From positions 1 through 23,144 of the IMG/VR virus record IMGVR_UViG_3300031143_000035: a stretch of DNA of 23,144 nucleotides. One strand, given 5' to 3'. The translations under genes and the position numbers were made by a program. A model generated the notes under the pieces. It did not search any database and had not been told where the DNA came from. It worked only from the letters and a program-made list of their open reading frames with translations. Of the stretch, positions 4,181 through 18,220 are shown piece after piece (within the stretch, counting starts at the first letter, position 1; every line of letters starts with the position of its first letter). Origin of the DNA: a virus.

Positions 4181-4209
4181 TTGACATTATCTATATAATA
4201 CTATATAAT
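4181..4209 (+). promoter_or_regulatory. Consensus sigma70-type promoter of the tailoring operon
   Basis: TTGACA at 4181-4186 and TATAAT at 4204-4209 are both perfect consensus hexamers, separated by 17 bases, the optimal spacing. Transcription would start near 4216, leaving a short leader with the ribosome site GAGGTGAT (4222-4229) before the ATG at 4232. It lies in one of the very few intergenic gaps. A second TATAAT at 4194-4199 is too close to the -35 to serve it. Confidence 0.8.
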
Positions 4210-4231
4210 GATATTTTAAGTGAGGTGATAT

Positions 4232-5596
4232 ATGAATATATTAGGAATTTCCGAAGGATTTCATGATGCTGCAATGTGCGTTATTCGTGATAAAACAATA
4301 ATTCATGCTTCTCAGAGTGAAAGATATAGTGGAGTCAAAAACGACAAATGGGTACATCCTTCCCAATGGCCTGTTTCAGATCGCAATCAACCAGACATAG
4401 TTGCATACTATGAGAAACCTTTTCGTAAAAATTTAAGACGTTTATGGGCAGGACAATCTTGGGAAAATCCTAGATTAAAATATGATCGTAGTTTTAGTCA
4501 TCATGAATCTCATGCAGCTGCTGGGTATTATACTGCACCATTTGATAACTGTAATGTTTTAGTTATAGATGCTATAGGTGAGTGGGATACTATCTCTATT
4601 TGGGAGGGTAGTTCTACTAATGGGTTTATGGGTCATAAAGAACATAAACTTAAAAAAATAAGGTCATGGAAATATCCGTATTCTCTTGGCCTCCTCTATT
4701 CTGCAATCACCCAACGTATAGGATTAAAACCCAACGAAGATGAATATATCACGATGGGGATGTCTGCTTATGGTGAACCTAAGTATGATTTAGAAGATCA
4801 GTTATGGGAAAACAACCATAAGGGAGTTGGTAACATTTTCCCTAAAGCTAGTGCAGAAGACCTCGCAGCGTCCATACAAGACCTGTACGAGAGGGAACTA
4901 CTTAAACTTGTAGAGATGTGTCCAAGTGAAAACCTAGTAATCATGGGTGGGTGTGCATTAAACTGTGCAGCGAACTCTAAGATAAAAGGTAAGAATATTT
5001 GGATCATGCCTGCTCCTGGCGATGCTGGTTCTGCATTAGGAGCCGCAGCATTAGTCAACAAACAAAAGTTACTCTGGAAACACCCGTATCTTGGTTATCC
5101 TATTCTTCAAGGAATAAATGTTAAGAATGTTGTTAAGGAACTTTTGGATAATCATGTTGTAGGGGTTGCAAATGGTAAGGCAGAGTTTGGGCCACGTGCA
5201 TTAGGTAATCGTTCTCTTCTTGGTGATCCACGATATGATATAAAGGATACCGTGAATAAGATTAAACGTAGACAACTGTTCAGGCCTTTTGCTCCTGCAA
5301 TCCTAGAAGAGTATAAGGATGAATACTTTGAGGGCCCGATGAATGAATATATGCAGTTTGTTGCAAAGGCAAAACATGATATGAGCTCTGTTACTCACGT
5401 TGATGGAACTGCAAGAGTGCAAGTAGTAAAACCAGATTGTAGTTCTTCAATTAGACAGGTATTGGAGGAATGGTATGAACAAACAGGTTGTCCTATGTTG
5501 TTGAATACTTCTTTAAATATTAAGGGAAAACCTATGGTTAATACTTGGGAAGATGCTCAAGCTTGGAGTAAGATGTATAATGTCGCTGTTTTCTAA
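4232..5596 (+). CDS. NodU/CmcH-family carbamoyltransferase
   Basis: A 454-aa protein recognised as the NodU/TobZ/CmcH O-carbamoyltransferase family, which moves a carbamoyl group from carbamoyl phosphate, through carbamoyl-adenylate, to a hydroxyl. It has the N-terminal GISEGFHDAAMCV strand-turn, the HHESH metal motif (H90 and H94), MGMSAYGEPKY (175-185), GGCALNCAANS (239-249), an Asp of PAPGDAG (D264) as likely third metal ligand, GKAEFGPRALGNRSLLGDPR (315-334), RPFAPAIL and the C-terminal LNTSLNIKGKPMV. Both the Kae1-like and YrdC-like parts are present, but the protein is about 100 aa shorter than TobZ or NodU. It is the first gene of the operon, with a perfect sigma70 promoter and strong ribosome site. 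The acceptor is unknown: a sugar, a small molecule or, as reported for some phage relatives, 5-hydroxymethylcytosine in DNA. Confidence 0.9.
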   Translation: MNILGISEGFHDAAMCVIRDKTIIHASQSERYSGVKNDKWVHPSQWPVSDRNQPDIVAYYEKPFRKNLRRLWAGQSWENPRLKYDRSFSHHESHAAAGYYTAPFDNCNVLVIDAIGEWDTISIWEGSSTNGFMGHKEHKLKKIRSWKYPYSLGLLYSAITQRIGLKPNEDEYITMGMSAYGEPKYDLEDQLWENNHKGVGNIFPKASAEDLAASIQDLYERELLKLVEMCPSENLVIMGGCALNCAANSKIKGKNIWIMPAPGDAGSALGAAALVNKQKLLWKHPYLGYPILQGINVKNVVKELLDNHVVGVANGKAEFGPRALGNRSLLGDPRYDIKDTVNKIKRRQLFRPFAPAILEEYKDEYFEGPMNEYMQFVAKAKHDMSSVTHVDGTARVQVVKPDCSSSIRQVLEEWYEQTGCPMLLNTSLNIKGKPMVNTWEDAQAWSKMYNVAVF

Positions 5597-6395
5597 ACGC
5601 AAAAAGTTAATTATTAGTGGGTGTTCTTACACAGACAACTATGCAAAACAACAAAAGATGAAAGAGTTTCCTATATGGGGAGAGCTTCTTGCAGAAAAAC
5701 TAGATATGGAACTTATAAATTTAAGTGAGTGTGGATTTGGAAATAAGGCAATTTATCATACTCTTATAGAAGAAATTTTAAATAAAAAAGATATAGGTCT
5801 AGTAGTTGCAATGTGGAGTGAAGTACAACGAATTAGTTTCTTTATAGATGACAAAACACTTTATCGGCGAAATGGAGATGTTTATAAGAAGGATTGGGAT
5901 TGTTTTCATCCAGAGAGAGTAGTTCTTGATGCAGACTGGCACGATAAGTTTTTTATCCCCCCCACAAAAAATACTAAGAAATCGGGACTTAAATATGATA
6001 TTAGTGTTGCCCTAAGAAATAAGTTTTTGGATGATATAAAGAGCGGAGTAAAAGAAAGTCTAGGTTATATGTATGCACTTCAGACCATATGTGAATCAAA
6101 TAATATACCACATCTTCAGATACAAGGTTGTCAACCCCTAATGGGTAAAGGAGAACCTTTACAGGGCATTCAGTATAAGGAGCTTTGCAACCTTATTATA
6201 GAAAGTCCTTATACAAACAAAATAAATAAAAACTTCATTGGTTGGCCTATAGACCCACGTATTGGTGGTTATAGTATTGATTCTAAGTTAGAAGATAAGC
6301 ATAGGTTCAGTCCAGAAGATACTCACCCCAATGATATGGGACATAAATATATTAGTGAGGTTTTATACGATGAATATAAAAAGATTAGTTCTTAA
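5580..6395 (+). CDS. SGNH/GDSL-hydrolase-like protein (copy 1)
   Basis: A 271-aa protein with the layout of SGNH hydrolases: GCS at residues 14-16 with candidate nucleophile Ser16, a Gly/Asn segment (CGFGNKAIYH), and a C-terminal DTHPNDMGH (247-255) giving the Asp/His pair. Such enzymes are esterases, or acyl- or deacetylases acting on polysaccharides, but phage members of this type are uncharacterised. I chose the ATG at 5580 (GGAG at 5565-5568) rather than 5553, because it reduces the overlap with the upstream gene to 17 bases and removes a non-conserved leader. It is paralogous to the protein at 9731 over its whole length: both share the FIGWPI...IGG core and the HPN..GH end. There is no signal peptide, so it should act in the cytoplasm or on virion parts. 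Confidence 0.65.
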   Translation: MSLFSKRKKLIISGCSYTDNYAKQQKMKEFPIWGELLAEKLDMELINLSECGFGNKAIYHTLIEEILNKKDIGLVVAMWSEVQRISFFIDDKTLYRRNGDVYKKDWDCFHPERVVLDADWHDKFFIPPTKNTKKSGLKYDISVALRNKFLDDIKSGVKESLGYMYALQTICESNNIPHLQIQGCQPLMGKGEPLQGIQYKELCNLIIESPYTNKINKNFIGWPIDPRIGGYSIDSKLEDKHRFSPEDTHPNDMGHKYISEVLYDEYKKISS

Positions 6396-6552
6396 ATTTA
6401 GGTTGTTTATTTCTTCTGCTTTTCCCCAAAAAGAAAAGAAGGAGAGGGGGTTTATATATGAATTTGACGATGAACGATTTAAAAAACTTACTCCAGATGA
6501 ACAAGGTGTACAAGTTCAAAAAAATTGGAACAAGTATATGAAAGATAAATGA
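6370..6552 (+). CDS. 60-aa protein of unknown function
   Basis: A short ORF I do not recognise. The start at 6370 is preferred over 6331, because GAGG at 6357-6360 is well placed for it and the longer form would overlap the upstream gene much more. The N-terminal 16 residues are basic and hydrophobic (MNIKRLVLKFRLFISS); the rest is charged with the segment GFIYEFDDERFKKLTPDEQ. It overlaps the upstream SGNH gene by 26 bases and the downstream radical SAM gene by 4 (ATGA), so it is probably translated by coupling. Possible roles are an adaptor or precursor peptide for the adjacent radical SAM protein, but no recognisable core peptide is visible and this is only a thought from position. Confidence 0.5.
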   Translation: MNIKRLVLKFRLFISSAFPQKEKKERGFIYEFDDERFKKLTPDEQGVQVQKNWNKYMKDK

Positions 6553-7790
6553 CTAAAAACCTTGAAGAGTATGAATGGTTTTGCCCACAACCCTTTATGA
6601 ATATCGTAACAGATGTTTTTGGAAAAATAAAACCTTGTTGTGTAATTAAGGGTAATAACGATTGGGATAGAAATCAGACAATAGAAGAATATTCTAAGTC
6701 AGACAAACTCAAACAATTTCGTAAGGAGATGTTGTTAGGGGGCGGCCCGACAGTAGATTCTAATTGTGAAGTTTGCATCGAACAAGAGAAACATTCTCCA
6801 GAGAGTCATCGTAAAACTTACAATAGTTATCTTGATTATCAAAAACCAGAATTAAAAAAAGAACTTGAAGAGTATCTAGAAACAGATATGGATACTCCAT
6901 TCGTGCGAACTATGGAGTGGATTGCTCCTTCAAACTTCTGTAATCTTCGTTGTCATATGTGTGGGTCTGCAAACTCTTCTAGTATTGCCAAAGAGAACCA
7001 GCAGATTGGACACCCCAATATTCCTAGTCTTGGTAACAAAACCTTATACAAGGATGATGACAAGGCAGAGAGTTTTATTCAAGAATGTGATGATTTTATA
7101 ATAGATAACCTTGTTGAGTTAAAGTTAACAGGGGGCGAGACACTTGCCATCAAATACAATTATGACTTGATGAAACGTATTGTTGAACGTGATCTTGCAA
7201 AGAATATGGACTTGAGAATTACTACCAATGGAACACTAACCCCGAAATTTGATGGTAAGGATATCTTTGATTATATTCCAGAGTTTAAGAGTTGTTTGAT
7301 AAACATTTCTATTGAGGGCTGGGCAAAGCGTAATGAGTATATTCGATACCCATCTAAGTGGGATATTATATACCATAATGCTAAACGATTTGCATCTTTA
7401 GATAATACAAAAATATTATTCGTATCAACGATCAACTCTATAAATGTAGGATATTTGTGGGAGATTGCAAAGGGCATGGAACATTTGTTTGATCTATACC
7501 CAGACACTTTTCATCAGTTTTCAACAGGTAGTCTTGTATGGGGCTGGATGGAAAAATATGTTATCACAAATGTACCACTAGATATTCGAGAATATTATGC
7601 TCAGTTATATTTTGAAAACTGGAATAAAAGATATAACCAAGACTTCAAAAAAATACTTGACTATCTCGACACACTACCATATGATGAGGAGTTGATGCAC
7701 AAGATGATGAAAGACGTTAAATCTAGAGATATACATAGAGGGACATGTTTGCTTGACCTTGCTCCTGAATGGAAACCTTATTATGAATAA
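6549..7790 (+). CDS. Radical SAM protein with N-terminal twitch/SPASM-like cysteines
   Basis: A 413-aa protein with the canonical radical SAM CX3CX2C motif at residues 131-138 (CNLRCHMC), which binds the catalytic 4Fe-4S cluster, and a GGET motif at 195-198 for SAM binding. Unusually, a second cysteine set lies before the core: C12, C30, C31, C73 and C76. This resembles the twitch/SPASM auxiliary-cluster signature (PF-NIVTD-FGKIKPCC), usually found after the core. Auxiliary-cluster radical SAM enzymes modify peptides, proteins or sugars through radicals. It overlaps the 60-aa gene by 4 bases and the next glycosyltransferase by 8. The substrate is unknown; the neighbours (glycosyltransferase, methyltransferase, oxygenases) suggest a tailoring pathway. 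It is distinct from the second radical SAM protein at 11322. Confidence 0.85.
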   Translation: MTKNLEEYEWFCPQPFMNIVTDVFGKIKPCCVIKGNNDWDRNQTIEEYSKSDKLKQFRKEMLLGGGPTVDSNCEVCIEQEKHSPESHRKTYNSYLDYQKPELKKELEEYLETDMDTPFVRTMEWIAPSNFCNLRCHMCGSANSSSIAKENQQIGHPNIPSLGNKTLYKDDDKAESFIQECDDFIIDNLVELKLTGGETLAIKYNYDLMKRIVERDLAKNMDLRITTNGTLTPKFDGKDIFDYIPEFKSCLINISIEGWAKRNEYIRYPSKWDIIYHNAKRFASLDNTKILFVSTINSINVGYLWEIAKGMEHLFDLYPDTFHQFSTGSLVWGWMEKYVITNVPLDIREYYAQLYFENWNKRYNQDFKKILDYLDTLPYDEELMHKMMKDVKSRDIHRGTCLLDLAPEWKPYYE

Positions 7791-8499
7791 TACAATATTA
7801 TGTGTGAAGTGGGGTGACAAATATGATCACACCTATGTTGAGAAACTAAAAGAACAGTGCGAACAAAATTGTTCTGTGCCGTTTAACTTTTACTGTCTTA
7901 CAGACAATCCTACACAACCATATGATATACAACTTCCTACTACTTGGGATTCCTACTATCATGAAAAACGGGGGTTCTTTTGGGCATATCGAAAGATACA
8001 TATGTTCAGTGATTTAGTTGGGGGAGATCAATTCCTTTTTCTAGACCTTGATGTTATTATACACCAAGACCTAAAATATTTCTTCGAATTACCAATGGAC
8101 AAACCGTGGATTGTTCGTGGTTGGTGGAACGATCTAGCCACAGTTAAAACAAACTATTCAAAGAATAAGTCAACGCCACTTAACTCATCAGTTATTCGTT
8201 GGAATAGAGGACAAATGAAATCTGTTTATAATCAGGTGAAGGATAATGCAGAGGTTATATTTTTCACATATCCTAGTCTTGATAATTACATGGTTCATCA
8301 CTGGTATGATCCTTGGAAAGAAGATGAAGGATTCTTACAGGGGTTTCCAAAAGGAGATGTATATTCTTGGTACAAAGGTAATATACATCCTGATGATATG
8401 TCTAAGAAGGTGTTAAGGAAAGATCATAAAATTTGTTTATTTAATAATAGTACTCATACTGAGGGTGATTATGATGAGGAAATTAAAACCTTATGGTAG
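7783..8499 (+). CDS. GT-A-type glycosyltransferase (copy 1)
   Basis: A 238-aa protein with the hallmarks of a small GT-A/GT8-like glycosyltransferase: an N-terminal strand (ILCVKWGDKY), the metal/nucleotide-sugar binding DxD in FLFLDLDVII (D88, D90), and an acceptor-side segment LNSSVIRWNRG. It would transfer a sugar from a nucleotide-sugar donor to an unknown acceptor in the cytoplasm. I chose the ATG at 7783, which overlaps the stop of the radical SAM gene (ATGAATAA), over the upstream ATG at 7753, because it begins just at the conserved first strand. The glycosyltransferase at 13681 starts with the matching IICIRIGEKY and has the DxD in the same place, so the two are paralogues. Confidence 0.75.
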   Translation: MNNTILCVKWGDKYDHTYVEKLKEQCEQNCSVPFNFYCLTDNPTQPYDIQLPTTWDSYYHEKRGFFWAYRKIHMFSDLVGGDQFLFLDLDVIIHQDLKYFFELPMDKPWIVRGWWNDLATVKTNYSKNKSTPLNSSVIRWNRGQMKSVYNQVKDNAEVIFFTYPSLDNYMVHHWYDPWKEDEGFLQGFPKGDVYSWYKGNIHPDDMSKKVLRKDHKICLFNNSTHTEGDYDEEIKTLW

Positions 8500-9149
8500 A
8501 TCATATAAAATTCACACCAGCTGTTGCTAGAGATTGGAAGTCTGTACAGTCTGCTGTTAGGGGCGATACATATAAACATTGTGCAAGAAGAGTAGAAGAT
8601 GCCAGCACATCATCACAACTGAAAAGTAAGTTGTGGATAATAGAAGAAGTTTCTAATCTTGGGGTTAAAGTAGATAGGGTGGCTATTCTTGCTGGTTGGT
8701 ATGCTAATTTTATTGTTCCCTTGTTAATAGATGAACTTGGTGCTTCTTTCATTCATAATTTTGAAATTGATCAAGATGTAAAACAGTTAAGTTATAAGTT
8801 TAATAAGAGATATAAGGAAGAAGAAAAATATAAGTGCTATATTGTAGATGTTATGTTTGAACCTATATGGCAGTACATGAAACAGGGTGTATCGGGTTTT
8901 GATCTTGTTATTAATACATCATGCGAACATATGTTTCCCATGCAAAAATTCCTTAAAATGAATCGAGGATTCCTTGGTAATCCACTTTACGTTTTACAAT
9001 CAACAGATGATAGCTCTTTTGATGATCATATCAATTGCGTTAGTTCTCCTGATGAGTTAGCTGAACAGGCAAAGCTTGTTGATGTTTTATATAGTGGAAC
9101 AAAGGTATTAGATAACGGTATGAATCGTTTCATGGTAATAGGAAAATAA
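8493..9149 (+). CDS. SAM-dependent methyltransferase-like protein
   Basis: A 218-aa protein with a class I methyltransferase-like core: motif I region VAILAGWYANF (63-73), acidic end of strand 2 in NFEIDQD (89-95), and FDLVINTSCEHMF (136-148) at the motif IV position. The Gly-rich loop is atypical (AGW rather than GxGxG), as in several marine phage methyltransferases. Two short ends flank the core: IKFTPAVARDWKSVQ at the N-terminus and LDNGMNRFMVIG at the C-terminus. Exactly these ends survive in the mini-ORF at 10446. It overlaps the upstream glycosyltransferase by 7 bases and is followed after one base by the 2OG oxygenase. The substrate is unknown. Confidence 0.6.
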   Translation: MVDHIKFTPAVARDWKSVQSAVRGDTYKHCARRVEDASTSSQLKSKLWIIEEVSNLGVKVDRVAILAGWYANFIVPLLIDELGASFIHNFEIDQDVKQLSYKFNKRYKEEEKYKCYIVDVMFEPIWQYMKQGVSGFDLVINTSCEHMFPMQKFLKMNRGFLGNPLYVLQSTDDSSFDDHINCVSSPDELAEQAKLVDVLYSGTKVLDNGMNRFMVIGK

Positions 9150-9150
9150 G

Positions 9151-9729
9151 ATGGTAGGTTTAATGGATTATGTAAAATATTATCCAGATATTTTAGACTC
9201 TGATTGGTGTCAAAACTTAATTACTAGTATTGGTAAAAGTAAACAATTTATTAAACTAAAACATTGGGAGAGTCATGGTATAGATCGTGAAAATGATTTG
9301 AAACATTTATATGTACCTGTAATAGATTGCTTTATGGAAGCAAAAGATTTATACCTAAAAGATGTTGATATAAATCACCCCAATAAAGATTTCACATATT
9401 TTGTTGAGTGGGGTAATAAATGTAGAATACAACACTTTGAAACAGGGGGCCATATGCCAACCCATGTAGATAATACTGTTACACAAGTCCCAAAAAAGAA
9501 ATATCCTAATAATGGGTTACACTTTGGTTCTGAAAGTGCTGATTCGAAATTATCATTAGTTCTTCATTTGAATGATGATTATGAGGGAGGAAATTTTCAT
9601 ATAAATGATAAAGATTACTCAACAAAAAAAGGATCAGTAATAGTTTTTCCTTCTGCATTTATGTATCCACATGGAGTTAAGGAAGTTACTAAAGGAGAAA
9701 GATGGAGCATCTCTATCTTTATGAAATAA
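9151..9729 (+). CDS. 2-oxoglutarate/Fe(II) oxygenase, prolyl-4-hydroxylase-like
   Basis: A 192-aa protein with a clear 2OG-Fe(II) dioxygenase double-stranded beta-helix. HxD is at H105-V-D107 (MPTHVDN), followed by LSLVLHLNDDYEGGNFHI (135-151), the distal iron ligand H174 (FMYPHGV) and the 2-oxoglutarate-binding R184 (GERWSISIF). It would hydroxylate a substrate while converting 2-oxoglutarate to succinate. The length and the LNDDYEGG segment match the phage P4H-like family common in marine T4-like phages. Start 9151 lies one base after the upstream stop; an ATG at 9163 with AGG upstream is an alternative. It is one of three 2OG-type enzymes in the window and unlike the two AspH-type ones. 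The substrate could be a protein, a sugar or a nucleic acid base. Confidence 0.85.
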   Translation: MVGLMDYVKYYPDILDSDWCQNLITSIGKSKQFIKLKHWESHGIDRENDLKHLYVPVIDCFMEAKDLYLKDVDINHPNKDFTYFVEWGNKCRIQHFETGGHMPTHVDNTVTQVPKKKYPNNGLHFGSESADSKLSLVLHLNDDYEGGNFHINDKDYSTKKGSVIVFPSAFMYPHGVKEVTKGERWSISIFMK

Positions 9730-9730
9730 G

Positions 9731-10462
9731 ATGAAATTAATTGCAATAGGGTGTAGTTTTACTGAACATTATATGCTTAGTAGAACGTATTCTAGTTATG
9801 ATTTGGATTATAAAAGATGGCCTGCTCATTTAGCAGAAAGCCTTGATATGGAATGTATTAATTTAGGTTTAGCAGGAAGAGGTAATGAATATATGTTATC
9901 AAAAGCCTTTGATGCATCTTCTATAGGTGATATTGGATTAGTAGTAGTGATGTGGAGCGAATTTCAAAGAATGGATTATGAAAAAAAAGAAGAGAGGGGT
10001 GGTTGGCGCAGTTTTCATCCCCATTTACCTATTCAAGCAGCTGAAGAAGCAGGCCTTATGTCGGTCAATAAAAAGATGTTGGAATATAAGAACCCTACTG
10101 CTGCATCTTTACAATCGCTTAGGTTTTTTTCTTGGTTTCAATTTATGATGAAGAATATTCCGTATTTGCAAATTCAAGGAGTTAATCCATTACCTGTGGG
10201 GAATAGTCATAAAGGTTATCATCCACTAGTTTTGAGTGACAGAGAAGAAGCCATTAAAGCAATAATAGATTCTGATTATTATGATTTAATAGATGAAGAT
10301 AAATTTATAGGTTGGCCTATATTTAAAGAAATTGGTGGTCACACTGTAGAGGATGTACTCCCTGACAATTGTAGAATTGGAGAAAAAGATCGTCACCCTA
10401 ATGCGATAGGCCATGAAATAATAGCACAGAAGATATTTGAGAATTATGATAGAATATATTAA
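9731..10462 (+). CDS. SGNH/GDSL-hydrolase-like protein (copy 2)
   Basis: A 243-aa paralogue of the protein at 5580. The conserved points are GCSFT (7-11, candidate nucleophile Ser9), NLGLAGRGNEY (block II/III Gly-Asn region), GLVVVMWSEFQR, IQG..PL, FIGWPIFKEIGGH and the C-terminal DRHPNAIGHE with D220 and H222. It shares the overall length and motif order of copy 1 but is clearly diverged, so the pair is not a recent duplication. The ATG follows the oxygenase stop by one base with no clear ribosome site, so coupling is likely. The end overlaps the mini-methyltransferase ORF by 17 bases. A deacetylase or esterase on a glycan is the best guess. Confidence 0.65.
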   Translation: MKLIAIGCSFTEHYMLSRTYSSYDLDYKRWPAHLAESLDMECINLGLAGRGNEYMLSKAFDASSIGDIGLVVVMWSEFQRMDYEKKEERGGWRSFHPHLPIQAAEEAGLMSVNKKMLEYKNPTAASLQSLRFFSWFQFMMKNIPYLQIQGVNPLPVGNSHKGYHPLVLSDREEAIKAIIDSDYYDLIDEDKFIGWPIFKEIGGHTVEDVLPDNCRIGEKDRHPNAIGHEIIAQKIFENYDRIY

Positions 10463-10604
10463 ATATACGCCTGAAGTAGCGAGAGATTGGAAACAGGCTC
10501 AGGCTGATGTGCAGAAAGATTATCCAGAAGTTCTAGAAAGTATGACTCTAAATAATGGTATGGAAAGGTACATGGTGATAGGATATGATTCACGGAGCAG
10601 ATAG
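10446..10604 (+). pseudogene. 52-codon internally deleted copy of the methyltransferase gene at 8493
   Basis: An intact short ORF whose product begins IKYTPEVARDWKQAQADV and ends NNGMERYMVIGYDSRSR. The first 22 residues match the N-terminus of the 218-aa methyltransferase (13 identical positions, including TP-VARDWK), and residues about 29-46 match its C-terminal stretch (VLDNGMNRFMVIG). The roughly 180 residues of the catalytic domain in between are absent, so it cannot be a methyltransferase. The DNA has diverged from the intact gene, so it is an old deletion or derives from another phage's allele. It remains in frame without stops, overlaps the upstream SGNH gene by 17 bases and the downstream hydroxylase by 20. 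It may be a relic or a retained small protein. Confidence 0.7.
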
Positions 10605-11325
10605 TAACGTATACACAAAACCTTATAAGGCAGGGAACATTGTAGAGTGGTGTAGAGATCATGATGTATGGTATCTAAAGATTGACATAGAGATACCAGA
10701 GGTATGCATTAAAGAAGCGCAAGCAGTATACGATGAGGGTTTCTTTGTTGATCATCGTTATGGTGATGGAGATGGCTGGCGTTCTGCCGCTATTCATAGT
10801 TTTGTACATGAGGATGCAGATGATACAAGTATGGGATGGCATCATACTAAGAATCCAAATGGCCATGGCCTTAGTGAAGATAAAGTAAAGTGGGGTTGGA
10901 CTGAGATTGCCGAGGTTGCGCCAGAGACTAAGAGATGGTTAGAAGATTTCCCCCACAAGTCCTATAGACGTTTGCGGTTTATGTTATTGGAACCAGAGGG
11001 GCGTATAGAATCACATAATGATGCATCTGATCAAAGAATAAAAGAAGGTCGAGTACGAAACATTGCTGGTGCGATTAACCTTGCTTTTTATCAACCTGAT
11101 GGTTGTTATCTTAGGAGAGTAGACACAAAGGAAGAGTTGCCTTTTGAGAACTGTACAGGTTTCTGGTTTGATAATGGAGTAGAACATGAGGCATACAATG
11201 CATCAGCTGAAAATAGATTTCACTTTATCATGCATGGTGGGTTTAATAAAGAACGTAAAGAATTAATGAGAAAATCTCTTGCTAAACAGTTTGGTAAGGA
11301 TGTATTGAAAGAAATTTATAAATGA
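10585..11325 (+). CDS. Aspartyl/asparaginyl beta-hydroxylase-like 2OG/Fe(II) oxygenase
   Basis: A 246-aa protein. The C-terminal half has the AspH-type fold signature: RLRFMLLEPEGRIESHND with H144 and D146 as iron ligands, INLAFYQPDGCYLR (164-177), distal H201 in GVEHEAYNAS and R211 in ENRFHFIMHGG for 2-oxoglutarate. AspH-family enzymes hydroxylate Asp or Asn side chains or related substrates. The N-terminal ~120 residues (many Trp, His and Asp) are not recognised and may recognise the substrate. The start at 10585 lies inside the mini-ORF and the end overlaps the next radical SAM gene by 4 bases (ATGA). A related but more divergent AspH-like protein lies at 19059 inside the neck operon. Confidence 0.75.
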   Translation: MIHGADSNVYTKPYKAGNIVEWCRDHDVWYLKIDIEIPEVCIKEAQAVYDEGFFVDHRYGDGDGWRSAAIHSFVHEDADDTSMGWHHTKNPNGHGLSEDKVKWGWTEIAEVAPETKRWLEDFPHKSYRRLRFMLLEPEGRIESHNDASDQRIKEGRVRNIAGAINLAFYQPDGCYLRRVDTKEELPFENCTGFWFDNGVEHEAYNASAENRFHFIMHGGFNKERKELMRKSLAKQFGKDVLKEIYK

Positions 11326-12353
11326 TTGATCTAACTAAACCAGTTGATGCATCTTATGAGTTGAACAACATTTGTAATTTAATGTGTCCTCAATGCGCTC
11401 GTAATACGATTAAAGATGGTGTTCTACAAAAGAATCCTGATACTAGTGGAAACCCTTTACCTACACTTGATAGTCACGAAATATCCTTGGATGATTTTAA
11501 GACTTCCTTTGATAATATTGGTAATGTCGGTATGGTAAAGTTCTATGGAACTGTATCAGAGAATATTGCAAGCACTAATTTCTTTGAGATCAATGAATAT
11601 ATTTTTAGCAAAAATGCACGAATACTTACGAGTACAAATGGCTCTCTAAAAACTAAAGAATGGTGGTATGAGTTAGGTAAGTTGTATAAGAAACAAGAAA
11701 AAAGTAGAATGGTTTTTTGTCTGGATGGTTTATATGAGGAACTTAGCCTCTATCGTATTAATGCAAATTATGATAAGATTATTGAAAATGCTCTATCCTT
11801 TATGGAAGGTGGTGGTAAGGCTGAATGGAGAATGATTATTTTCAAACATAATCAGCATCAGATAGAAGATGCAAAGAAACTTGCAAAACAATATGGATTT
11901 GATAAATTCACTTATCAATATTCGAATAGAAAAGATATACCTGAACCATTCACTTTCAAAGGAAAACAGTATAATTTAGAACCTCAAGATAAATGGAAAG
12001 AGTGGGAAACTATTAAAAATAAAAGACTAGAACATACAGAAGTGGGTAACATTGTATGTAAATTTAAAGAGGTCAATTCAGTATATATAGATTACCTTTG
12101 CAGAGTTTGGCCATGTTGTTATCTGCCTTCTGCGAAACATCTTCTAGGTGAACAAAAGTTTTACGATGACTATTATTATGATATGAGTAATAATTTGATA
12201 GATAAATCATTAGAGGAAATAATGAATGATGTGTTCTATGACTCTCTACAAAAGTCTTGGGAAAAAGAAGAGACTTGTTTGAAACCATGTAGCAACACTT
12301 GTTCTTTTACTGATAGCGTTAGGACATCAAATTATAGGGTAGATGTGTGGTAG
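11322..12353 (+). CDS. Radical SAM protein with C-terminal SPASM-like cysteines
   Basis: A 343-aa protein with the radical SAM CX3CX2C at C18, C22 and C25 (NNICNLMCPQCARN), very close to the N-terminus as in SPASM/twitch enzymes. A C-terminal cysteine-rich region (C246, C260, C265, C266, C319, C323, C327) probably binds an auxiliary iron-sulfur cluster. The usual GGE motif is replaced by MVKFYGTVSEN (71-81), so SAM amino-group binding may differ. The domain order is opposite to that of the radical SAM protein at 6549, whose extra cysteines precede the core, so the two are different subfamilies. It overlaps the AspH-like gene by 4 bases and the unknown 453-aa gene by 7. Peptide or protein modification, or sugar epimerisation, is possible; the substrate is unknown. 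Confidence 0.85.
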   Translation: MIDLTKPVDASYELNNICNLMCPQCARNTIKDGVLQKNPDTSGNPLPTLDSHEISLDDFKTSFDNIGNVGMVKFYGTVSENIASTNFFEINEYIFSKNARILTSTNGSLKTKEWWYELGKLYKKQEKSRMVFCLDGLYEELSLYRINANYDKIIENALSFMEGGGKAEWRMIIFKHNQHQIEDAKKLAKQYGFDKFTYQYSNRKDIPEPFTFKGKQYNLEPQDKWKEWETIKNKRLEHTEVGNIVCKFKEVNSVYIDYLCRVWPCCYLPSAKHLLGEQKFYDDYYYDMSNNLIDKSLEEIMNDVFYDSLQKSWEKEETCLKPCSNTCSFTDSVRTSNYRVDVW

Positions 12354-13708
12354 AAGGTTTTGAAAAATTTGTAAGTCTCTGGAAATCAGAAACTAAAGAT
12401 ATAAAAATTAAGAATCCTGATCTTTTGTTTCTGGTGGTGTATCCAGATAAACTAGAATGGGAATTCTCTATAGAGAAACAATGTCAGACAACTACTCTTA
12501 TGGTATCTGGTGGGGCCACAGGTGCAAGTACTGGCCAAGAGGTTCAGTTCTGTTACAGAAGTGAAGTAAATGACTTTCTTAAAGTATGTAAACACACTCA
12601 TGCAATGATTGTGTCTGTCGGCATGGTATTTGATATGACATGTGTTACGAATGATGTATCTGCAAAATGGAGAAATAATTTTGTAGAAGCTGAAAATAGA
12701 AAGGTACAACCAAATCAATTAACTCCTATAACAGATTTCTATGATTTTGTGGAGAGCGGAGAATATATTAAAGCTCACATTATAGCCAAGACAGAAAAAG
12801 ATGCGTTCCTTCATCATCAACATATAAACCTAAATGTGGATATGTGGAAAACTCTGGATTGTCCACCTCTAGATGAGAGATATGCATGGGGTAGTTACGA
12901 TAGATCAAAAGATAATTTTCATGATGATTATACTCCCTTTTGGCTAACTCCTAAAGGCGGTAAAAAGATACAGAATTTTACTCATGAAGAGAGAACAAGA
13001 AAATCATTCTCATATTATAGGGATTATGATGAAGTATGGAAAAACCTTGATATCGCAGACCTTGATGATTTTTATTTTTCCAGATATATGACAAGAATCC
13101 AAGAATCTTTTTATCTGTTTAATACGGAATCTCTTAAAAGAGTACCAGATAGTAAGTTTGATCTTATATTTTCACCCACAGCTGGTTATAGTGCAGAGGC
13201 TTGTGTTGACAAACTAGATTTTTCTGGTGAGGTTGTGTTATATGATTATGTACAACAGAACATAGATATCAAAAAAATGATAGTAGACTTTAATATGTCT
13301 TTAGAAGAACTTTATATTTTTAGAAAAACTATAGATGAAAATATAGTAGATAATGTAGGAAATTTTCCTGCTACACAAAGAACTGTTGGAATGGGTTCTC
13401 ATGAAGAATTAATGAAAATGCAAGAAAAAATGAGGGATGAACATGAAGTAAATTATTGGTTAATGAATATTATTGAACCAGATTATACTGCACTCTTAAA
13501 TAAAATTAGAGGTAAAGATGTGTTTTTTGATGCCAGTAATATATTCAGTTATCATATGTCCCATGCGTATCATACATTAGAAGAGCTTATTCTCTCGTAT
13601 GAAAGGCTGCATGAAATATTAGGTTATGCAAATAGTTGTTGGTTTCAAGGAACTAAACCTACGAAACAATGGGAGAGAAAATGGTTGACATCATCTGTAT
13701 TAGAATAG
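12347..13708 (+). CDS. 453-aa protein of unknown function, probably two domains
   Basis: I do not recognise this family. The start is a GTG at 12347 overlapping the upstream stop by 7 bases; no in-frame ATG lies nearby. The N-terminal ~165 residues contain hydrophobic strands (LLFLVVYPD, THAMIVSVGMVFD) and look like an alpha/beta domain acting on something held between HAHIIAKTEKD-like segments. A His/Asp/Trp-rich linker (about 180-250) follows. Residues 260-330 (FDLIFSPTAGYSAEACVDKL, then EVVLYDYVQQN) resemble a Rossmann-type nucleotide- or SAM-binding fold, and 385-425 (DVFFDASNIFSYHMSH) would suit its last strands. A methyltransferase-like or glycosyltransferase-like C-terminal domain is an inference only. 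It lies between a radical SAM gene and a glycosyltransferase, which it overlaps by 28 bases. Confidence 0.55.
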   Translation: MVEGFEKFVSLWKSETKDIKIKNPDLLFLVVYPDKLEWEFSIEKQCQTTTLMVSGGATGASTGQEVQFCYRSEVNDFLKVCKHTHAMIVSVGMVFDMTCVTNDVSAKWRNNFVEAENRKVQPNQLTPITDFYDFVESGEYIKAHIIAKTEKDAFLHHQHINLNVDMWKTLDCPPLDERYAWGSYDRSKDNFHDDYTPFWLTPKGGKKIQNFTHEERTRKSFSYYRDYDEVWKNLDIADLDDFYFSRYMTRIQESFYLFNTESLKRVPDSKFDLIFSPTAGYSAEACVDKLDFSGEVVLYDYVQQNIDIKKMIVDFNMSLEELYIFRKTIDENIVDNVGNFPATQRTVGMGSHEELMKMQEKMRDEHEVNYWLMNIIEPDYTALLNKIRGKDVFFDASNIFSYHMSHAYHTLEELILSYERLHEILGYANSCWFQGTKPTKQWERKWLTSSVLE

Positions 13709-14379
13709 GTGAAAAATATGGCCCAGAGTATGAAGACTATTTAAATAAAAAACTCTCTAAGTATAATATACACTGGATACATGAACCATACAATGAACGA
13801 GTAACCCTACAGTGGAATAAAATGTGGGGTATGCAGTTAGATCAAGAAGAACCTATTTGTGTCATGGACATAGACGTTCTTCTTATGGGAGACTACGAAA
13901 AGATATTTGACTACCCTATTATGCGTGGACAGTTCCTTGCAATGCCTGGGTGGTGGAGAGACACAAAGAAAGAGGGATACTCTATCAACGGTGGGTTCTT
14001 TAAGTATTATCCAAAAGATTGTAAATACATCTACGATAAGTTTATGAAAGACATACACGGATGGCAGAGACATTACATTGATAATGGAGTTACTAGAGGC
14101 CCTGTAAATGGAGAACAGTACTTTGTTGAGGATAGTGTAAAAGAACAATTAGAGCTTATCACACTACCTAAAGAATGGTTTACACGATGGGTTGTAGACT
14201 CTGATATTGTTGGAAGAAGTATGACTACGTGGCAAGTACAGATCACACGTAAGTATCAAAAGATAACTGGTAACGACTATATATTCTTAGGGGGAGAGTT
14301 TCACCCAGATATCAAGTTTGTACACTTTACACACAGAAACAATAAGCCTCATGAATGGGAATATTATGAAAACAAATAA
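13681..14379 (+). CDS. GT-A-type glycosyltransferase (copy 2)
   Basis: A 232-aa protein with IICIRIGEKYGPEY at the N-terminus, the DxD motif in CVMDIDVLLMGD (D63, D65), a GGFFKYY acceptor segment and an EQYFVEDS motif near residues 145-155. This is the usual order of small GT8-like enzymes. I chose the ATG at 13681 over 13669, because GGAGAG at 13672-13677 is then an ideally placed ribosome site. The gene overlaps the unknown 453-aa gene by 28 bases and the following synthase gene by 14. It is a diverged paralogue of the glycosyltransferase at 7783; both carry WW after the DxD (PGWWRD and RGWWND). The donor and acceptor are unknown. Confidence 0.75.
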   Translation: MVDIICIRIGEKYGPEYEDYLNKKLSKYNIHWIHEPYNERVTLQWNKMWGMQLDQEEPICVMDIDVLLMGDYEKIFDYPIMRGQFLAMPGWWRDTKKEGYSINGGFFKYYPKDCKYIYDKFMKDIHGWQRHYIDNGVTRGPVNGEQYFVEDSVKEQLELITLPKEWFTRWVVDSDIVGRSMTTWQVQITRKYQKITGNDYIFLGGEFHPDIKFVHFTHRNNKPHEWEYYENK

Positions 14380-15451
14380 ATTAGTATATTGGAATATGGG
14401 GTTTCTAGAAACCGTTGAACAATGGATAAAAACAGAACACCCACTTTTTTTACAAGAATGGGAACTATTACTAAAAGCAGACTTATCCCTCAGTCATCGA
14501 GCTGGGTATGTTACATCAAGTCAATCAACACTGGATAGAGCTGGAGAATTTGAAACTGTTTTTCATACACAACCTTTGATTCCTTGGATACCTTTTAAAG
14601 AATATCCTAGAAAAGACTTTGCTGACTGTATGTTTGAATCGGCGCAGTTACTGGCTGATAAGGGAAAAACAATAGATTTTTTCTGGTCAGGGGGGCTAGA
14701 TAGTACATCAGCACTCCTTGCATTTAATGAATTGGGGTTACATAAACAACTACATGTTATTATGGGAGGTGTTCCTGAGTCTCCTGAGATTTTTGAAGAA
14801 CTGGTAAAAGGACGAATGGATTATACTTGGGAACAGACAAGCTCAGCTGAAGTATTTTATGGAATAGCGAAATTAGACGAACATATATTATGTACTTGTT
14901 CTGAATTTGATATAATGTTTGGCGGTAAGGGTAATTTTGCAGCCACGGGGACTGTAGTAAAAAATCCTGATAGTTGGGAAGTTAAACGTAGATATTATAC
15001 TGCAAGACATGGATGGGGGATGTCTCTAAATTTTAGTGGGGATTGGGTAGATATTAATAATTATATGCCATTTGGGATGCAACCTCCTCTTGAAAAATGG
15101 TTATGTAATTTTGTATTAGATGATAAAATGTTGTATCATGATGTTTCAGATGAAACTTGGGAAGATGGAACTGGATCATGGCGCACTACTGGCGATGCCC
15201 CAATATCAGCCGGCCAAGAATGGTATAAACAAGTCAAAATGCCGCTCAGAGATTTTTTATATAAGATTACAAAGGATGAATATCTATCTTATCATAAACC
15301 AAAACTGGCAAGTATGTTAAGATTGTCAGGACGAATTTCTGGCAAGGTGCCGATAAAGAAAAGAATTCTCGCAATAACTAATGATGGTAAGGTTGTAGAT
15401 GCTGATAATTTTAATAATTTTGATTGGCCGAGTTATATAGTAAATTTTTAG
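14366..15451 (+). CDS. Asparagine-synthase-like ATP-pyrophosphatase lacking the glutaminase domain (copy 1)
   Basis: A 361-aa protein with the PP-loop SGGLDST at 108-114, typical of the ATP-pyrophosphatase domain of asparagine synthetases and related amidotransferases (beta-lactam synthetase, lasso-peptide cyclases). These adenylate a carboxylate and attach an amine. There is no N-terminal Ntn glutaminase with its Cys2; the ~100 residues before the loop are a different, unrecognised domain. A late ILAITNDGKVV segment near the C-terminus is shared with the copy at 21499. The start at 14366 has GGGA at 14357-14360; 14351 and 14318 are in-frame alternatives. It is the last gene of the sigma70-driven operon. 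It could use free ammonia or another amine, or act in peptide, sugar or base modification. Confidence 0.75.
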   Translation: MKTNKLVYWNMGFLETVEQWIKTEHPLFLQEWELLLKADLSLSHRAGYVTSSQSTLDRAGEFETVFHTQPLIPWIPFKEYPRKDFADCMFESAQLLADKGKTIDFFWSGGLDSTSALLAFNELGLHKQLHVIMGGVPESPEIFEELVKGRMDYTWEQTSSAEVFYGIAKLDEHILCTCSEFDIMFGGKGNFAATGTVVKNPDSWEVKRRYYTARHGWGMSLNFSGDWVDINNYMPFGMQPPLEKWLCNFVLDDKMLYHDVSDETWEDGTGSWRTTGDAPISAGQEWYKQVKMPLRDFLYKITKDEYLSYHKPKLASMLRLSGRISGKVPIKKRILAITNDGKVVDADNFNNFDWPSYIVNF

Positions 15452-15453
15452 TT

Positions 15454-15461
15454 TATAAATA
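15454..15461 (+). promoter_or_regulatory. T4-type late promoter TATAAATA
   Basis: Exact TATAAATA in the 36-base gap after the synthase gene, 26 bases before the ATG at 15488, with AAAGGAGA at 15472-15479 in between. Intergenic position and ideal spacing make it one of the best late-promoter candidates here. Confidence 0.8.
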
Positions 15462-15487
15462 GATTTATAGAAAAGGAGATCCATATT

Positions 15488-15793
15488 ATGTCATGGACAT
15501 TAATAACAAAAGCTACAAGACCTGATACAGATACAGATTTTTATACTGGGCAAAGTCAATCTGATTTTGATTATATAAAAGAAACCTATAAAGATACAGG
15601 AAAAATAGTTAGTATTACTCAAGCTTTATCTGATAATGAATTAGAAATTTTAAAAACATTTGTTTTTAAAGATCAAGCTTCAGCGAATGAATGGCATGAT
15701 GATGACAAAATGGTGGCATGGGTATCGGCTTCAAAGACTTATAATACCAATAATGATATTGAATACGTAATTGTTTCAAAGGGAGCTACTTAA
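15488..15793 (+). CDS. 101-aa late protein of unknown function
   Basis: Unrecognised small acidic protein with its own late promoter (15454) and strong AAGGAG ribosome site, so probably well expressed late in infection, unlike the operon before it. There is no signal peptide, membrane segment or Cys. The alternation of short strands and helices (WTLITKATRP, then NELEILKTFVFKDQASANEWH, then IEYVIVSKG) would fit a small ferredoxin-like or dimeric alpha/beta barrel fold, but this is only an impression. It is a possible virion or regulatory protein. Its last 8 bases overlap the end of the convergent kinase-like gene, with no terminator hairpin between. Confidence 0.6.
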   Translation: MSWTLITKATRPDTDTDFYTGQSQSDFDYIKETYKDTGKIVSITQALSDNELEILKTFVFKDQASANEWHDDDKMVAWVSASKTYNTNNDIEYVIVSKGAT

Positions 15794-16388
15794 AATCTTC
15801 TTTTAATTTACTAAAAATTTCTAATGCATTAGGTTTATCGTGTCTAAGTAATCCTCTTTCTTGACGTATTTTTATAGAGTTACAGATAGATATTCTGTCT
15901 AATATATCAATGTATGCTTGCACACAATTCCATTCAACTTGTCTATTATATCTCCAAAGAAGTTCATTCAAACCTTCCCATCCTATCCAACGTCTTATCA
16001 TACGAAAGTCCCAATGTGGATCACCATATGATAACGATTCCCAATCTCGCAAACCGTTAAGATTCCCTTCTTCATCTACCAGTATATTTTGTCTCCACAA
16101 ATCTCCATGAAGATAAAATCTTTTATCTAAGTTATTTCTAATTGCATAGAAATCATATAAGGCATCTTCAGTAAAAGTATCCCTTTCTAACCAATTAACT
16201 AGATCATAAACAACATCTCTCATGTTAGATTCTGGTATGTCATCATATGTTGCAAAGTCAGGCCCATGAGGTAAAGAGTGCAACTCTGCTAGTAAGTCTG
16301 CTAGTTGTTCTATAAACTTTGGGCCTGGATTGTATAGTTCTGATCCATCAATCCACTCACCCTTTATCATATAGTCTAACGAAACCAT
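15786..16388 (-). CDS. Aminoglycoside-phosphotransferase/choline-kinase-like protein lacking the N-lobe
   Basis: A 200-aa protein with the catalytic half of an APH/choline-kinase fold: Brenner motif HGDLWRQN at 94-101 (catalytic D96, N101) and LRDWESLSYGDPHWD (113-127, metal-binding D115). The first residues (LDYMIKGEWI) match the hinge after the N-lobe, so the ATP-grasping N-lobe with its Lys is missing; full-length members have about 260-300 aa. The start overlaps the sulfotransferase gene by 13 bases, so no hidden N-lobe lies immediately upstream in another frame. It could phosphorylate a hydroxyl of a sugar or small molecule if the N-lobe is supplied in trans, or be an inactive or substrate-binding remnant. 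It belongs to a three-gene leftward operon with the sulfotransferases. Confidence 0.75.
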   Translation of the reverse strand: MVSLDYMIKGEWIDGSELYNPGPKFIEQLADLLAELHSLPHGPDFATYDDIPESNMRDVVYDLVNWLERDTFTEDALYDFYAIRNNLDKRFYLHGDLWRQNILVDEEGNLNGLRDWESLSYGDPHWDFRMIRRWIGWEGLNELLWRYNRQVEWNCVQAYIDILDRISICNSIKIRQERGLLRHDKPNALEIFSKLKEDFK

Positions 16389-17131
16389 GTTTCAATTTCC
16401 TTGTAGTTCTTAAATATTTTTGTATAGTCTGGGTTGTGTATAATATCTCTTTTGTTTTCTTCTTTAAACTCTGGAGTTAAACCATACCACTCTACAACTT
16501 CCATAATACATTCATCTTGATCCTCAACAAAATCTTCATATACTATTTGTGGTGCATCTAGATGTTTCATTAATTCATCTGTAAATTCTTCACGAAATAT
16601 ATACTTTTCAAAATCATATTCTGTAGCAACAAATGTGTTAGGTTTTGGTACTTTTCTTTTACCTTCATCATATGTAGAAAACTCTCTGTCTCTAGGATAG
16701 TCTGGTTGACTACAATACATTGCAGTTAATTCAAAACAGAAGTGTGATATCTTATCTAGACGCTGAAACCATATTGGATCAAAGTCTTTTAGAATTTCAA
16801 ATGCAAACTCTATTCTATCTTCTGTAGGAAGGTCTACTTGTTCCACAGTGTTTGTGAACTGTAAAGGCATTGCCTTTATACAAAAAGGTACAGGAAAGTT
16901 TTGTAGATGTTTCAATCTGTTTTGCAAATCTTCTGGTGTAAGTAGGTCTTCATTTACAGTCCAATCTATATCTACTCTGGTTTGTTTTAATTCAAAAGCT
17001 TTAGAGAGATCAACTGCTTTGTTTCTACCAAACCATTCATTACCTTCTGCAAGATTGAAAGTTTTGCACATATATTCCATAAGGTAATAAGAACCAGATC
17101 GTGGAGTACATATTATACAGTAATCACTCAC
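16376..17131 (-). CDS. Sulfotransferase-like protein (copy 1)
   Basis: A 251-aa protein with the sulfotransferase 5'-phosphosulfate-binding loop near the N-terminus (IICTPRSGSYYLMEY, loop at 9-16) and a 3'-phosphate-binding-like segment QRLDKISHFCFELT with R124 and S129. These bind PAPS, the sulfate donor. The ending is the KEIETWFR motif also seen in copy 2. It resembles bacterial Stf0-like and marine phage sulfotransferases, which sulfate hydroxyls of sugars or lipids. It begins with an ATGA overlap at the end of copy 2 and overlaps the kinase-like gene by 13 bases, so the three are cotranscribed leftward. The acceptor is unknown; PAPS must come from the host, as no PAPS-making gene is visible. 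Confidence 0.75.
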   Translation of the reverse strand: MSDYCIICTPRSGSYYLMEYMCKTFNLAEGNEWFGRNKAVDLSKAFELKQTRVDIDWTVNEDLLTPEDLQNRLKHLQNFPVPFCIKAMPLQFTNTVEQVDLPTEDRIEFAFEILKDFDPIWFQRLDKISHFCFELTAMYCSQPDYPRDREFSTYDEGKRKVPKPNTFVATEYDFEKYIFREEFTDELMKHLDAPQIVYEDFVEDQDECIMEVVEWYGLTPEFKEENKRDIIHNPDYTKIFKNYKEIETWFR

Positions 17132-17730
17132 TCAAACCACCCTTTGATTTCTTCAATATTTTCAAACTTTTCTTCATAATCAATCCCCAATTTAATAGTG
17201 AGTTGTGTTCTCACTCTATTGTCTGCTTTTAATCCGTATTGTTCTTGTAGGTCTGCAAGAGTACTTAAAGGATCATCAAGAAAATTTTCAAACGCAACCA
17301 GAGCTCCCTGATTGTGAGTGTAATAGATATCCCAAAACTGTTCTAACTTGGACATAAATCTATCGAACTCTTCTTTAGTAGCTCTAAGGCTATTATCTTT
17401 AATCTCTGGACGTTCAGATGCGTAATGAATGTGGTTGACTTTTGTTCGCAAACGTGTTATATGACTCAAAAATTGTGATAGTACGTCTTTTCTGTATAAC
17501 CAGATACAAGGAAACCCGTCAATCATTTCCCCAAAGTGTTGATCCTCTGGTATGTAATGAGGCAAGATTTTAAGGAGGTGTGGTTGTGTTGCCCAGTTTT
17601 CTTTTTCTATATCTTTATAATCATTCTTCTTTAACCATGAAGCAGGATCATAAAGACCGAAAGTATTGCAAAGAAACCTACGAAAATATGTACTTCCACT
17701 TCTAGACGATGCAATTAACCCTATTCTCAT
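17128..17730 (-). CDS. Sulfotransferase-like protein (copy 2)
   Basis: A 200-aa paralogue of the downstream protein. It has the loop IASSRSGSTYFRRFL (6-20), a 3'-phosphate segment WLYRKDVLSQFLSHITRLRT (77-96, R80 and S85) and the same IEEIKGWFE-type C-terminus. It is about 50 residues shorter than copy 1, mostly in the middle. It is the first gene of the leftward operon, starting 16 bases from the divergent GNAT gene. AGGTGT lies just before the ATG, a ribosome site that is too close and weak. No convincing promoter was seen on the minus strand. PAPS-dependent sulfation of a glycan or small molecule is likely by family. Confidence 0.7.
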   Translation of the reverse strand: MRIGLIASSRSGSTYFRRFLCNTFGLYDPASWLKKNDYKDIEKENWATQPHLLKILPHYIPEDQHFGEMIDGFPCIWLYRKDVLSQFLSHITRLRTKVNHIHYASERPEIKDNSLRATKEEFDRFMSKLEQFWDIYYTHNQGALVAFENFLDDPLSTLADLQEQYGLKADNRVRTQLTIKLGIDYEEKFENIEEIKGWFE

Positions 17731-17746
17731 ACACCTATATATAACT

Positions 17747-18220
17747 ATGGAAGTACTTGAATCTACATTTGAAGAAGTCTACCCTATTTGGAATGAACAA
17801 CTTTGGCCAGGAAGAATTAGTAAGATAGAGAATATGAGTAGTCTTTTTTGGTTACAACCAAAAGAAATTACAAAAAACCATTCTATATTTGAAAAGTATT
17901 CGCCTACATTCTTTGTTATCAAAGAAGATAATAAAATTGTGGGTGTTAACAGTGGATTTAGAACTGATGATAAGGTTTATCGTTCTAGAGGATTATGGGT
18001 CAAAGAAGATTATAGAAGTAAAGGATATGGTAAGGTTCTGTTGATGCAAGCAATAATTCAAGGCAAGTCTGAGGATTGTCATTGGATTTGGAGTATGCCT
18101 AGAAAATCTGCACTTAAAACATACGAAGGAGTAGGTTTTAAGAAAAGAGGAAAATGGTTAGATAAGGGTGTAGAATTCGGCCCTAATTGTCTCGCAACAA
18201 GACAGTTAATTTATAAATAG
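17747..18220 (+). CDS. GNAT-family N-acetyltransferase
   Basis: A 157-aa GNAT-fold protein with strand FFVIKEDNKIVGVNSGF (55-71), the acetyl-CoA pyrophosphate loop YRSKGYGKVLL (89-99, the R-x-x-G-x-G signature of motif A) and YEGVGFKKRGKW (126-137, motif B). It transfers an acetyl group from acetyl-CoA to an amine. I chose the ATG at 17747 rather than 17666, because the longer form would run antisense into the sulfotransferase start and adds a non-GNAT leader. It is divergent from the sulfotransferase operon with only 16 bases between starts. The late promoter for gp13 lies in its last codons. The acceptor could be an amino sugar of the same pathway or a protein. Confidence 0.8.
   Translation: MEVLESTFEEVYPIWNEQLWPGRISKIENMSSLFWLQPKEITKNHSIFEKYSPTFFVIKEDNKIVGVNSGFRTDDKVYRSRGLWVKEDYRSKGYGKVLLMQAIIQGKSEDCHWIWSMPRKSALKTYEGVGFKKRGKWLDKGVEFGPNCLATRQLIYK
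18212..18219 (+). promoter_or_regulatory. T4-type late promoter of the neck/packaging operon
   Basis: Exact TATAAATA at the 3' end of the GNAT gene, 17 bases before the gp13 ATG, with TAGGAGA at 18225-18231 as ribosome site. It is followed by a head-proximal run of core virion genes, which fits late expression. Confidence 0.8.

Follow-up and report, generated by a model that had tools for sequence, protein, structure and literature searches.

The region between VrlC and gp14 in pelagimyophages is described by Zaragoza-Solas et al. 2020 (PMC7029224) as a hypervariable 'host recognition cluster' (HRC) that carries tail fibers, GT8 glycosyltransferases, and radical S-adenosylmethionine (SAM) cassettes; cyanomyophages also have an HRC. 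The same study proposes O-chain modification by the HRC glycosyltransferases. For cyanophages, Sullivan et al. 2010 (PMC3037559) report 2-oxoglutarate (2OG) oxygenases, carbamoyltransferases, and lipopolysaccharide (LPS) gene clusters. The DNA analyzed here, called the window, is the complete 23,144 bp IMG/VR record IMGVR_UViG_3300031143_000035. It contains an enzyme island of 18 open reading frames (ORFs), mostly for group-transfer or oxidative enzymes, that fills the space between o163 (ends at 4175) and gp13 (starts at 18237). The gene order VrlC–fiber–o317–o163–core–gp13 in a relative (G001), whose VrlC is 37–41% identical to that of phage Mosig, places the window island in the HRC. Tail fibers, GT8-type glycosyltransferases (a weak assignment here), and radical SAM genes are common to both. 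A first, sequence-only reading of the window had set the island against the T4 gene order; that surprise was overstated because the slot is the hypervariable region already published for marine T4-like phages (PMC7029224). The location and general type of the island are known. The fixed gene core, the protein unk453, the carbamoyltransferase, sulfotransferase, and kinase modules, and the link to o317 and o163 reported below do not appear in the main text passages that describe the HRC.

IMG/VR was searched with gp15, unk453, AspH, GT2, and o317 as separate anchors, and gene order was read with profile hidden Markov models (HMMs). Counts refer to distinct loci with enough flanking sequence, and frequencies from the core-gene anchors describe core-bearing phages. 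Five plus-strand genes of the window form the core: glycosyltransferase 1 (GT1; 7753–8499), the methyltransferase MT (8493–9149), AspH (10585–11325), unk453 (12347–13708), and glycosyltransferase 2 (GT2; 13669–14379, with a start at 13669 or 13684). The order GT1-MT-AspH-unk453-GT2 on a single strand is found in 46 of the 47 distinct loci that have all five genes, whereas the published HRC content is not syntenic; here, only the periphery varies. Among distinct unk453 loci with room for the neighboring gene, GT1 accompanies unk453 in 33/33, MT in 33/35, AspH in 38/38, and GT2 in 44/44. Searches anchored on AspH and GT2 give the same picture. The gp15-anchored sample was chosen blind to the island; 13 of its loci extend 4 kb or more ahead of gp13, and 9 of these 13 have the core (not dereplicated).

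The core genes overlap mostly by 4–13 nt, and their order persists while the pairwise identity of unk453 drops to 40%. AspH is 79–83% identical across six relatives. Protein-distance correlations are 0.60–0.76 within the core and 0.51–0.64 between the core and gp13, compared to 0.66 between gp13 and gp14. The median dN/dS is 0.07 for AspH and GT2, the same as for gp13 and gp15. These data identify GT1-MT-AspH-unk453-GT2 as a conserved enzyme operon with coupled starts, under strong purifying selection and surrounded by variable modules. The sequence-only reading would have been undone by genes occurring in random combinations with no conserved subset. Fixed order, co-occurrence, correlated distances, and purifying selection argue against that outcome for the core, and the synteny search it proposed, run in IMG/VR, returned a fixed core together with a variable periphery.

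The unk453 protein has 453 residues and no sequence relative in Pfam, PHROG, NCBIfam, PDB, or INPHARED, and no copy turned up in pattern scans of 84,980 GTDB genomes from bacteria and archaea. Its AlphaFold model has a pLDDT of 91 with 37 sequences (44 with 9). Foldseek matches the C-terminal half to class-I methyltransferases (probability 1.0, E 5e-4), and this half is predicted to be a methyltransferase. The N-terminal half is an undefined domain with unreliable Foldseek matches only. Weak matches to LH3 and GlyE were not used, and hhalign did not support a relationship between this domain and GT1, GT2, or MT. At full length, the fold is matched by proteins of uncultured phages.

The window proteins were searched against Pfam, NCBIfam, and PHROG. 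AspH belongs to the Asp/Asn β-hydroxylase family of 2OG oxygenases (PF05118, 2.1e-9). A cellular origin of AspH was rejected; its only GTDB match lies on a 10.7-kb contig of a metagenome-assembled genome (MAG) that also bears gp13-gp15 and is a phage contig. A phage contig with the core and gp13-gp15 (L257) is binned as an uncultured Flavobacteriales MAG, which may be a hint of the host or a binning error. GT1 is GT-A/GT8-like (PHROG_1962, 1e-6; PF01501, 0.0057 in a single member). GT2 is GT-A-like with a DxD motif and was assigned through hhalign to GT1 (96.9%). MT is class-I methyltransferase-like through its homologs (PF01564, 0.0027 in one member; PF13649, 2.7e-4 in L336).

The remaining island genes are peripheral, and most are optional. 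On the plus strand, the island opens with a carbamoyltransferase of the NodU/TobZ type (4232–5596; PF16861 4.9e-49, PF02543 6.5e-38, PHROG_1601 7e-87) that is present in about half of the core loci. It is followed by SGNH hydrolase 1 (5553–6395; GCSYT and DTHP motifs, PF19547 1.8e-6, PF00657 0.0026), the small ORF s73 (6331–6552), which is conserved in two other viruses only (L207 and L085), and a mobile radical SAM protein with a twitch domain (6549–7790; PF04055 2.6e-11, NF033640 5e-77, above cut-off). An optional 2OG-Fe(II) oxygenase (9151–9729; PF13640 2e-13) and SGNH hydrolase 2 (9731–10462; PF19547 1.2e-5, below cut-off) lie between MT and AspH, and a radical SAM/SPASM protein (11322–12353; PF04055 1.1e-4, PF13186 9.8e-4, PHROG_21308 4e-25) lies between AspH and unk453. 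The CxxxCxxC motif is intact in both radical SAM proteins. Radical SAM and SGNH genes occupy shifting positions among loci, and the distances of the twitch radical SAM protein follow gp13 poorly (r 0.27). Downstream of GT2 is an ATP-pyrophosphatase-like gene (ATP-PPase; 14318–15451), assigned from the SGGxDS motif alone (SGGLDS in the window) and present in a minority of loci. Next comes s101 (15488–15793), a fast-evolving small protein (median dN/dS 0.79). The high dN/dS of SGNH, rSAM2, and s101 may stem from mixed paralogs and is not read as positive selection. The s101 gene has its own late promoter in 18 of 27 orthologs, evolves fast, and is present in multiple copies in L017, L175, and L224.

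Three minus-strand genes form a kinase/sulfotransferase module that is found in about 20–40% of loci. These are an APH-like kinase that lacks the N-lobe (15786–16388; PF01636 1.3e-14, profile positions 76–227), the sulfotransferase-like ST1 (16376–17131; PRSGS motif and no significant Pfam match, in a similar place and strand in relatives), and the Stf0-like sulfotransferase ST2 (17128–17730; PF13469 9e-5 and PF09037 6e-4, both below cut-off). The APH-like kinase has 182–206 residues and no N-lobe in most relatives and 302 residues in G001. A retained N-lobe was rejected for the G001 protein; the added length is an s101-like C-terminal extension. A plus-strand GNAT acetyltransferase (17666–18220; PF00583 2.7e-13) closes the island. 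The slot is either empty or filled with different cargo in the other gp15-anchored loci. The alternatives include 2OG oxygenases (L063), an SGNH gene with an ATP-PPase and a methyltransferase (L064), and an epimerase with two unassigned minus-strand genes (L080).

The gene inventory agrees with the sequence-only reading in its main point, 18 genes between the fiber genes and gp13 that nearly all encode group-transfer or oxidative enzymes. Family searches recover its carbamoyltransferase, kinase, acetyltransferase (GNAT), and both pairs of radical SAM proteins and 2OG oxygenases, and its sulfotransferase is weak and below cut-off. Its methyltransferase, glycosyltransferase, and ATP-PPase have no significant Pfam match in the window proteins and were assigned from homologs (MT, GT) or a motif (ATP-PPase). 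Two SGNH hydrolases, unk453, and the second glycosyltransferase and sulfotransferase copies were missing from its list. The continuous overlapping genes it described are there in part; the run is broken by the minus-strand stretch 15786–17730 and by gaps at 10463–10584 and 15452–15487. More than half of the 18 genes are optional modules, so the single pathway it proposed for all of them is not supported.

Two plus-strand genes with late promoters lie immediately upstream of the island. The o317 gene (2719–3672) has no family in Pfam or PHROG, and o163 (3684–4175) encodes its small partner protein, identified by co-occurrence. The o317 gene precedes the core in 38/38 and o163 in 36/37 AspH-anchored loci with room. 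In the o317-anchored search, core-family enzymes were found in 54 of 64 assessable loci; the other 10 include L080, with its epimerase, and Mosig, which has MT and GT2 homologs nearby. In L326 and L333, o317 occurs with o163 and the neighbors are mostly unassigned. Near relatives whose slot is empty have neither o317 nor o163 at that place. Because both genes lie between the fiber genes and gp13 and have late promoters, and because the o317 sequence is rich in repeats, we infer that their products belong to the virion.

Pelagibacter (SAR11) phage Mosig EXVC030M is the only isolate with o317 (Mosig_00097; 52%), and its o163 homolog is Mosig_00095 by HMM. Within a set of 50,697 phage records, homologs of o317, MT, and GT2 are found solely in Mosig. 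A second architecture is shared by Mosig and about 15 contigs. In it, an NDP-sugar (nucleoside diphosphate sugar) epimerase gene (8e-26) lies between o317 and o163, and a convergent set of GT2, MT, carbamoyltransferase, radical SAM, and DegT sugar aminotransferase (1.8e-81) genes comes after o163. The Mosig island has homologs of o317, o163, MT, GT2, and the carbamoyltransferase together with radical SAM and Asp-hydroxylase genes. It differs from the window island in the reversed orientation of the enzymes and the addition of the NDP-sugar epimerase and the aminotransferase, and tblastn did not find homologs of the window-type AspH or unk453 in Mosig. Of all the evidence, these sugar-nucleotide enzymes speak most strongly for glycan assembly as the theme of the locus, and they strengthen the glycan-decoration idea raised from the window sequence. 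The slot of HTVC008M also has 2OG-Fe(II) oxygenases between the fiber genes and gp13. It differs in having no annotated glycosyltransferase or methyltransferase and no o317 or o163 homolog; gp065 and gp066 were considered as such homologs and rejected.

The T4-type late promoter TATAAATA is located on the plus strand of the window ahead of o317 (2649–2656), o163 (3657–3664), s101 (15454–15461), and gp13 (18212–18219). This motif precedes gp13 in 81 of 95 orthologs and s101 in 18 of 27, compared to one GT2 of 80 and otherwise none for the core genes. In 46 of 60 distinct loci, a relaxed late motif, [ACT]ATAAATA, lies close to where o317 or o163 begins, versus a 7% background, and the o163-to-GT1 gap in relatives is about 11 nt. 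The motif and the narrow gap suggest read-through late transcription of the core in most members. The window also has a perfect σ70 promoter, TTGACA-N17-TATAAT (4181–4209, plus strand), with 22 nt between its end and the start of the carbamoyltransferase gene. No other window site scores 11/12 or more. The first base of the promoter, 4181, is identical to the island start in the sequence-only reading. A 12/12 σ70 site likewise heads the core in L198, L202, and L309. Scores of at least 10 precede GT1 in 13 of 60 loci versus about 4.5% background, and σ70-like sites are enriched before GT1 or the carbamoyltransferase in relatives. A late-only expression model was dropped given the perfect promoter in the window.

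The island probably encodes a glycan pathway. The two GT-A-type glycosyltransferases, the class-I methyltransferase, AspH, and unk453 would build a conserved methylated core glycan from host nucleotide sugars. The swappable modules (carbamoyltransferase, SGNH acyl-hydrolase/transferase, radical SAM, kinase/sulfotransferases, GNAT, and ATP-PPase) would add variable end groups. The acceptor would be a virion protein, with o317 as the first candidate; one of its residues would be hydroxylated by the AspH-type enzyme and then glycosylated. Viral enzymes glycosylate virions in mycobacteriophages, on the capsids, and in chlorovirus PBCV-1. Soluble virus-encoded glycosyltransferases and methyltransferases that work without a lipid carrier are common to those systems and, as proposed here from the genes, to the island. 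As expected for virion glycosylation, the glycosyltransferases are encoded beside virion genes. To our knowledge, carbamoyl, sulfo, and AspH components are absent from the mycobacteriophage and PBCV-1 systems. We tentatively favor a phage glycan assembly and decoration locus that acts on a virion protein, and we place the virion acceptor slightly ahead of a host surface acceptor. The full scheme is speculative: a virus-only five-gene pathway would attach a methylated glycan of conserved structure to an o317 residue that has been hydroxylated, with end groups (carbamate, acyl, sulfate, phosphate) varied per phage, and the host interaction would then be tuned by a chemical coat and not by the fiber sequence.

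Several observations weigh against a virion glycan pathway. The family-search assignments of GT1, GT2, and MT are weak. AspH is present without the other core genes in L066 and L171. Three loci have o317-o163-GNAT-gp13 and no enzymes of core type (L267, L269, and L271), and three others have o317 without o163 and without enzymes (L291, L299, and L307). These enzyme-free loci show that the link between o317 and the enzymes is not obligatory. By analogy with T4 early promoters, the island is likely expressed early in the window virus, and the perfect σ70 promoter weakens a purely late, virion-only model and perhaps points to a host target.

A host target is the strongest alternative, and we consider it possible. 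The same enzymes would alter a host surface glycan, either the LPS core or the O-chain, and block superinfection by competitors or re-adsorption of progeny. The σ70 promoter and its enrichment in relatives favor this idea, and inheritance with fiber-region genes fits a receptor-linked role. GT8-type enzymes act on the LPS core, and the PF05118 family also contains LpxO, a lipid A hydroxylase. A host surface role of this kind was proposed for the HRC glycosyltransferases of the same slot (PMC7029224). However, the island has no membrane, flippase, or polymerase component. The membrane flippase and polyprenyl glycosyltransferase of gtr-type O-antigen modification were not found, and no island protein has a strongly hydrophobic segment of membrane-helix grade. 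Most relatives have no core promoter in the narrow o163–GT1 gap, and expression would depend on the late promoters of o317 and o163. AspH and GT2 are also constrained like virion genes across diverse phages, whereas host surfaces vary.

It is improbable that the island is loosely assembled cargo, a set of optional auxiliary genes that entered a permissive slot and share no pathway outside a small core. The peripheral modules do vary and shift, the slot can be empty or otherwise filled, and the twitch radical SAM protein tracks gp13 poorly, but the core has a fixed order, its reading frames are coupled, and it is under purifying selection, all of which weigh against this reading. Synthesis of a diffusible natural product or a modified peptide during infection, an option left open by the sequence-only reading, is less probable still, and nothing was found in its favor beyond the enzyme families themselves and the small ORFs s73 and s101. 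SPASM radical SAM proteins, ATP-PPases, carbamoyltransferases, sulfotransferases, and hydroxylases of these types are common in natural-product clusters. However, the radical SAM genes are optional, and neither a clear precursor peptide nor a carrier domain, carrier-protein machinery, or transporter was recognized with them, as would be expected of a ribosomally synthesized and post-translationally modified peptide or another natural product. The s73 ORF is confined to the window and two other viruses, and the Mosig-type architecture has sugar-nucleotide genes. Hypermodification of phage DNA is very unlikely; some phages do modify their DNA with carbamoyl- and glycosyltransferases, and the window has an early-type promoter, but the locus sits in a virion gene block beside o317 and o163, away from replication genes, and no DNA-specific enzyme was recognized.

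The window virus is a T4-like marine myovirus of Kyanoviridae-like type, as judged by its gene order and late promoters. The gp13-gp14-gp15-gp16 order at the right end was identified by family searches as T4-type neck, sheath-stabilizer, and terminase small subunit genes, and gp13 (18237–19055, plus strand) encodes the neck protein (PHROG_211, 2.6e-39). By gp15, the window is closest to two isolates, Methylophilales phage Melnitz and Pelagibacter phage HTVC008M (62%), and megablast against the 50,697 phage records found no DNA-level relative. Neither psbA, a cyanomyophage marker, nor the CsgG/curli genes of pelagimyophages (SAR11 hosts) were found in 13 relatives, all of them fragment records. 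The left end of the window opens inside fib1 (1–2718, plus strand), a repeat-rich tail-fiber gene with a missing 5′ end (PHROG_8215, E 9e-4) whose product resembles the 886-residue fiber after VrlC in G001. Cargo of a related kind continues past 18220 on the plus strand: the Asp/Arg-hydroxylase-like AspH2 in the gp13/gp14 gap (19059–19658; PF05118 0.0065, below cut-off) and a second ATP-PPase-like gene in the gp15/gp16 gap (21499–22560), homologous to 14318–15451. These gaps within the neck/terminase operon are plastic among relatives. A tandem pair of full-length gp14 genes is present in 32 loci (not dereplicated; for example L098, L121, L021, L041, L112, and L135). The copies are 72–74% identical to one another in the loci checked and represent a duplicated neck/head-closure gene. 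In L026, an intein/Hint-like segment (3–533; CWVAGTQILMEDGSCKNIENLKIGDKVMSF) appears to split a VrlC-like baseplate gene that is uninterrupted in L025. A tryptophan-halogenase-like gene (PF04820, 5e-49) with an ATP-PPase-like gene near it is found in G001 (L259; 8616–10067 and 10735–11799), both outside the island.

These results move the HRC of abundant marine T4-like phages from a hypervariable region with guessed functions to a testable pathway of five enzymes and one candidate acceptor. The HRC has a fixed core that is tied to two virion-like genes and includes an undescribed protein family. With a virion protein as the acceptor, the core would give these phages a chemical decoration of their own particles. 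If the acceptor is the host surface, the core would identify a superinfection-exclusion system.

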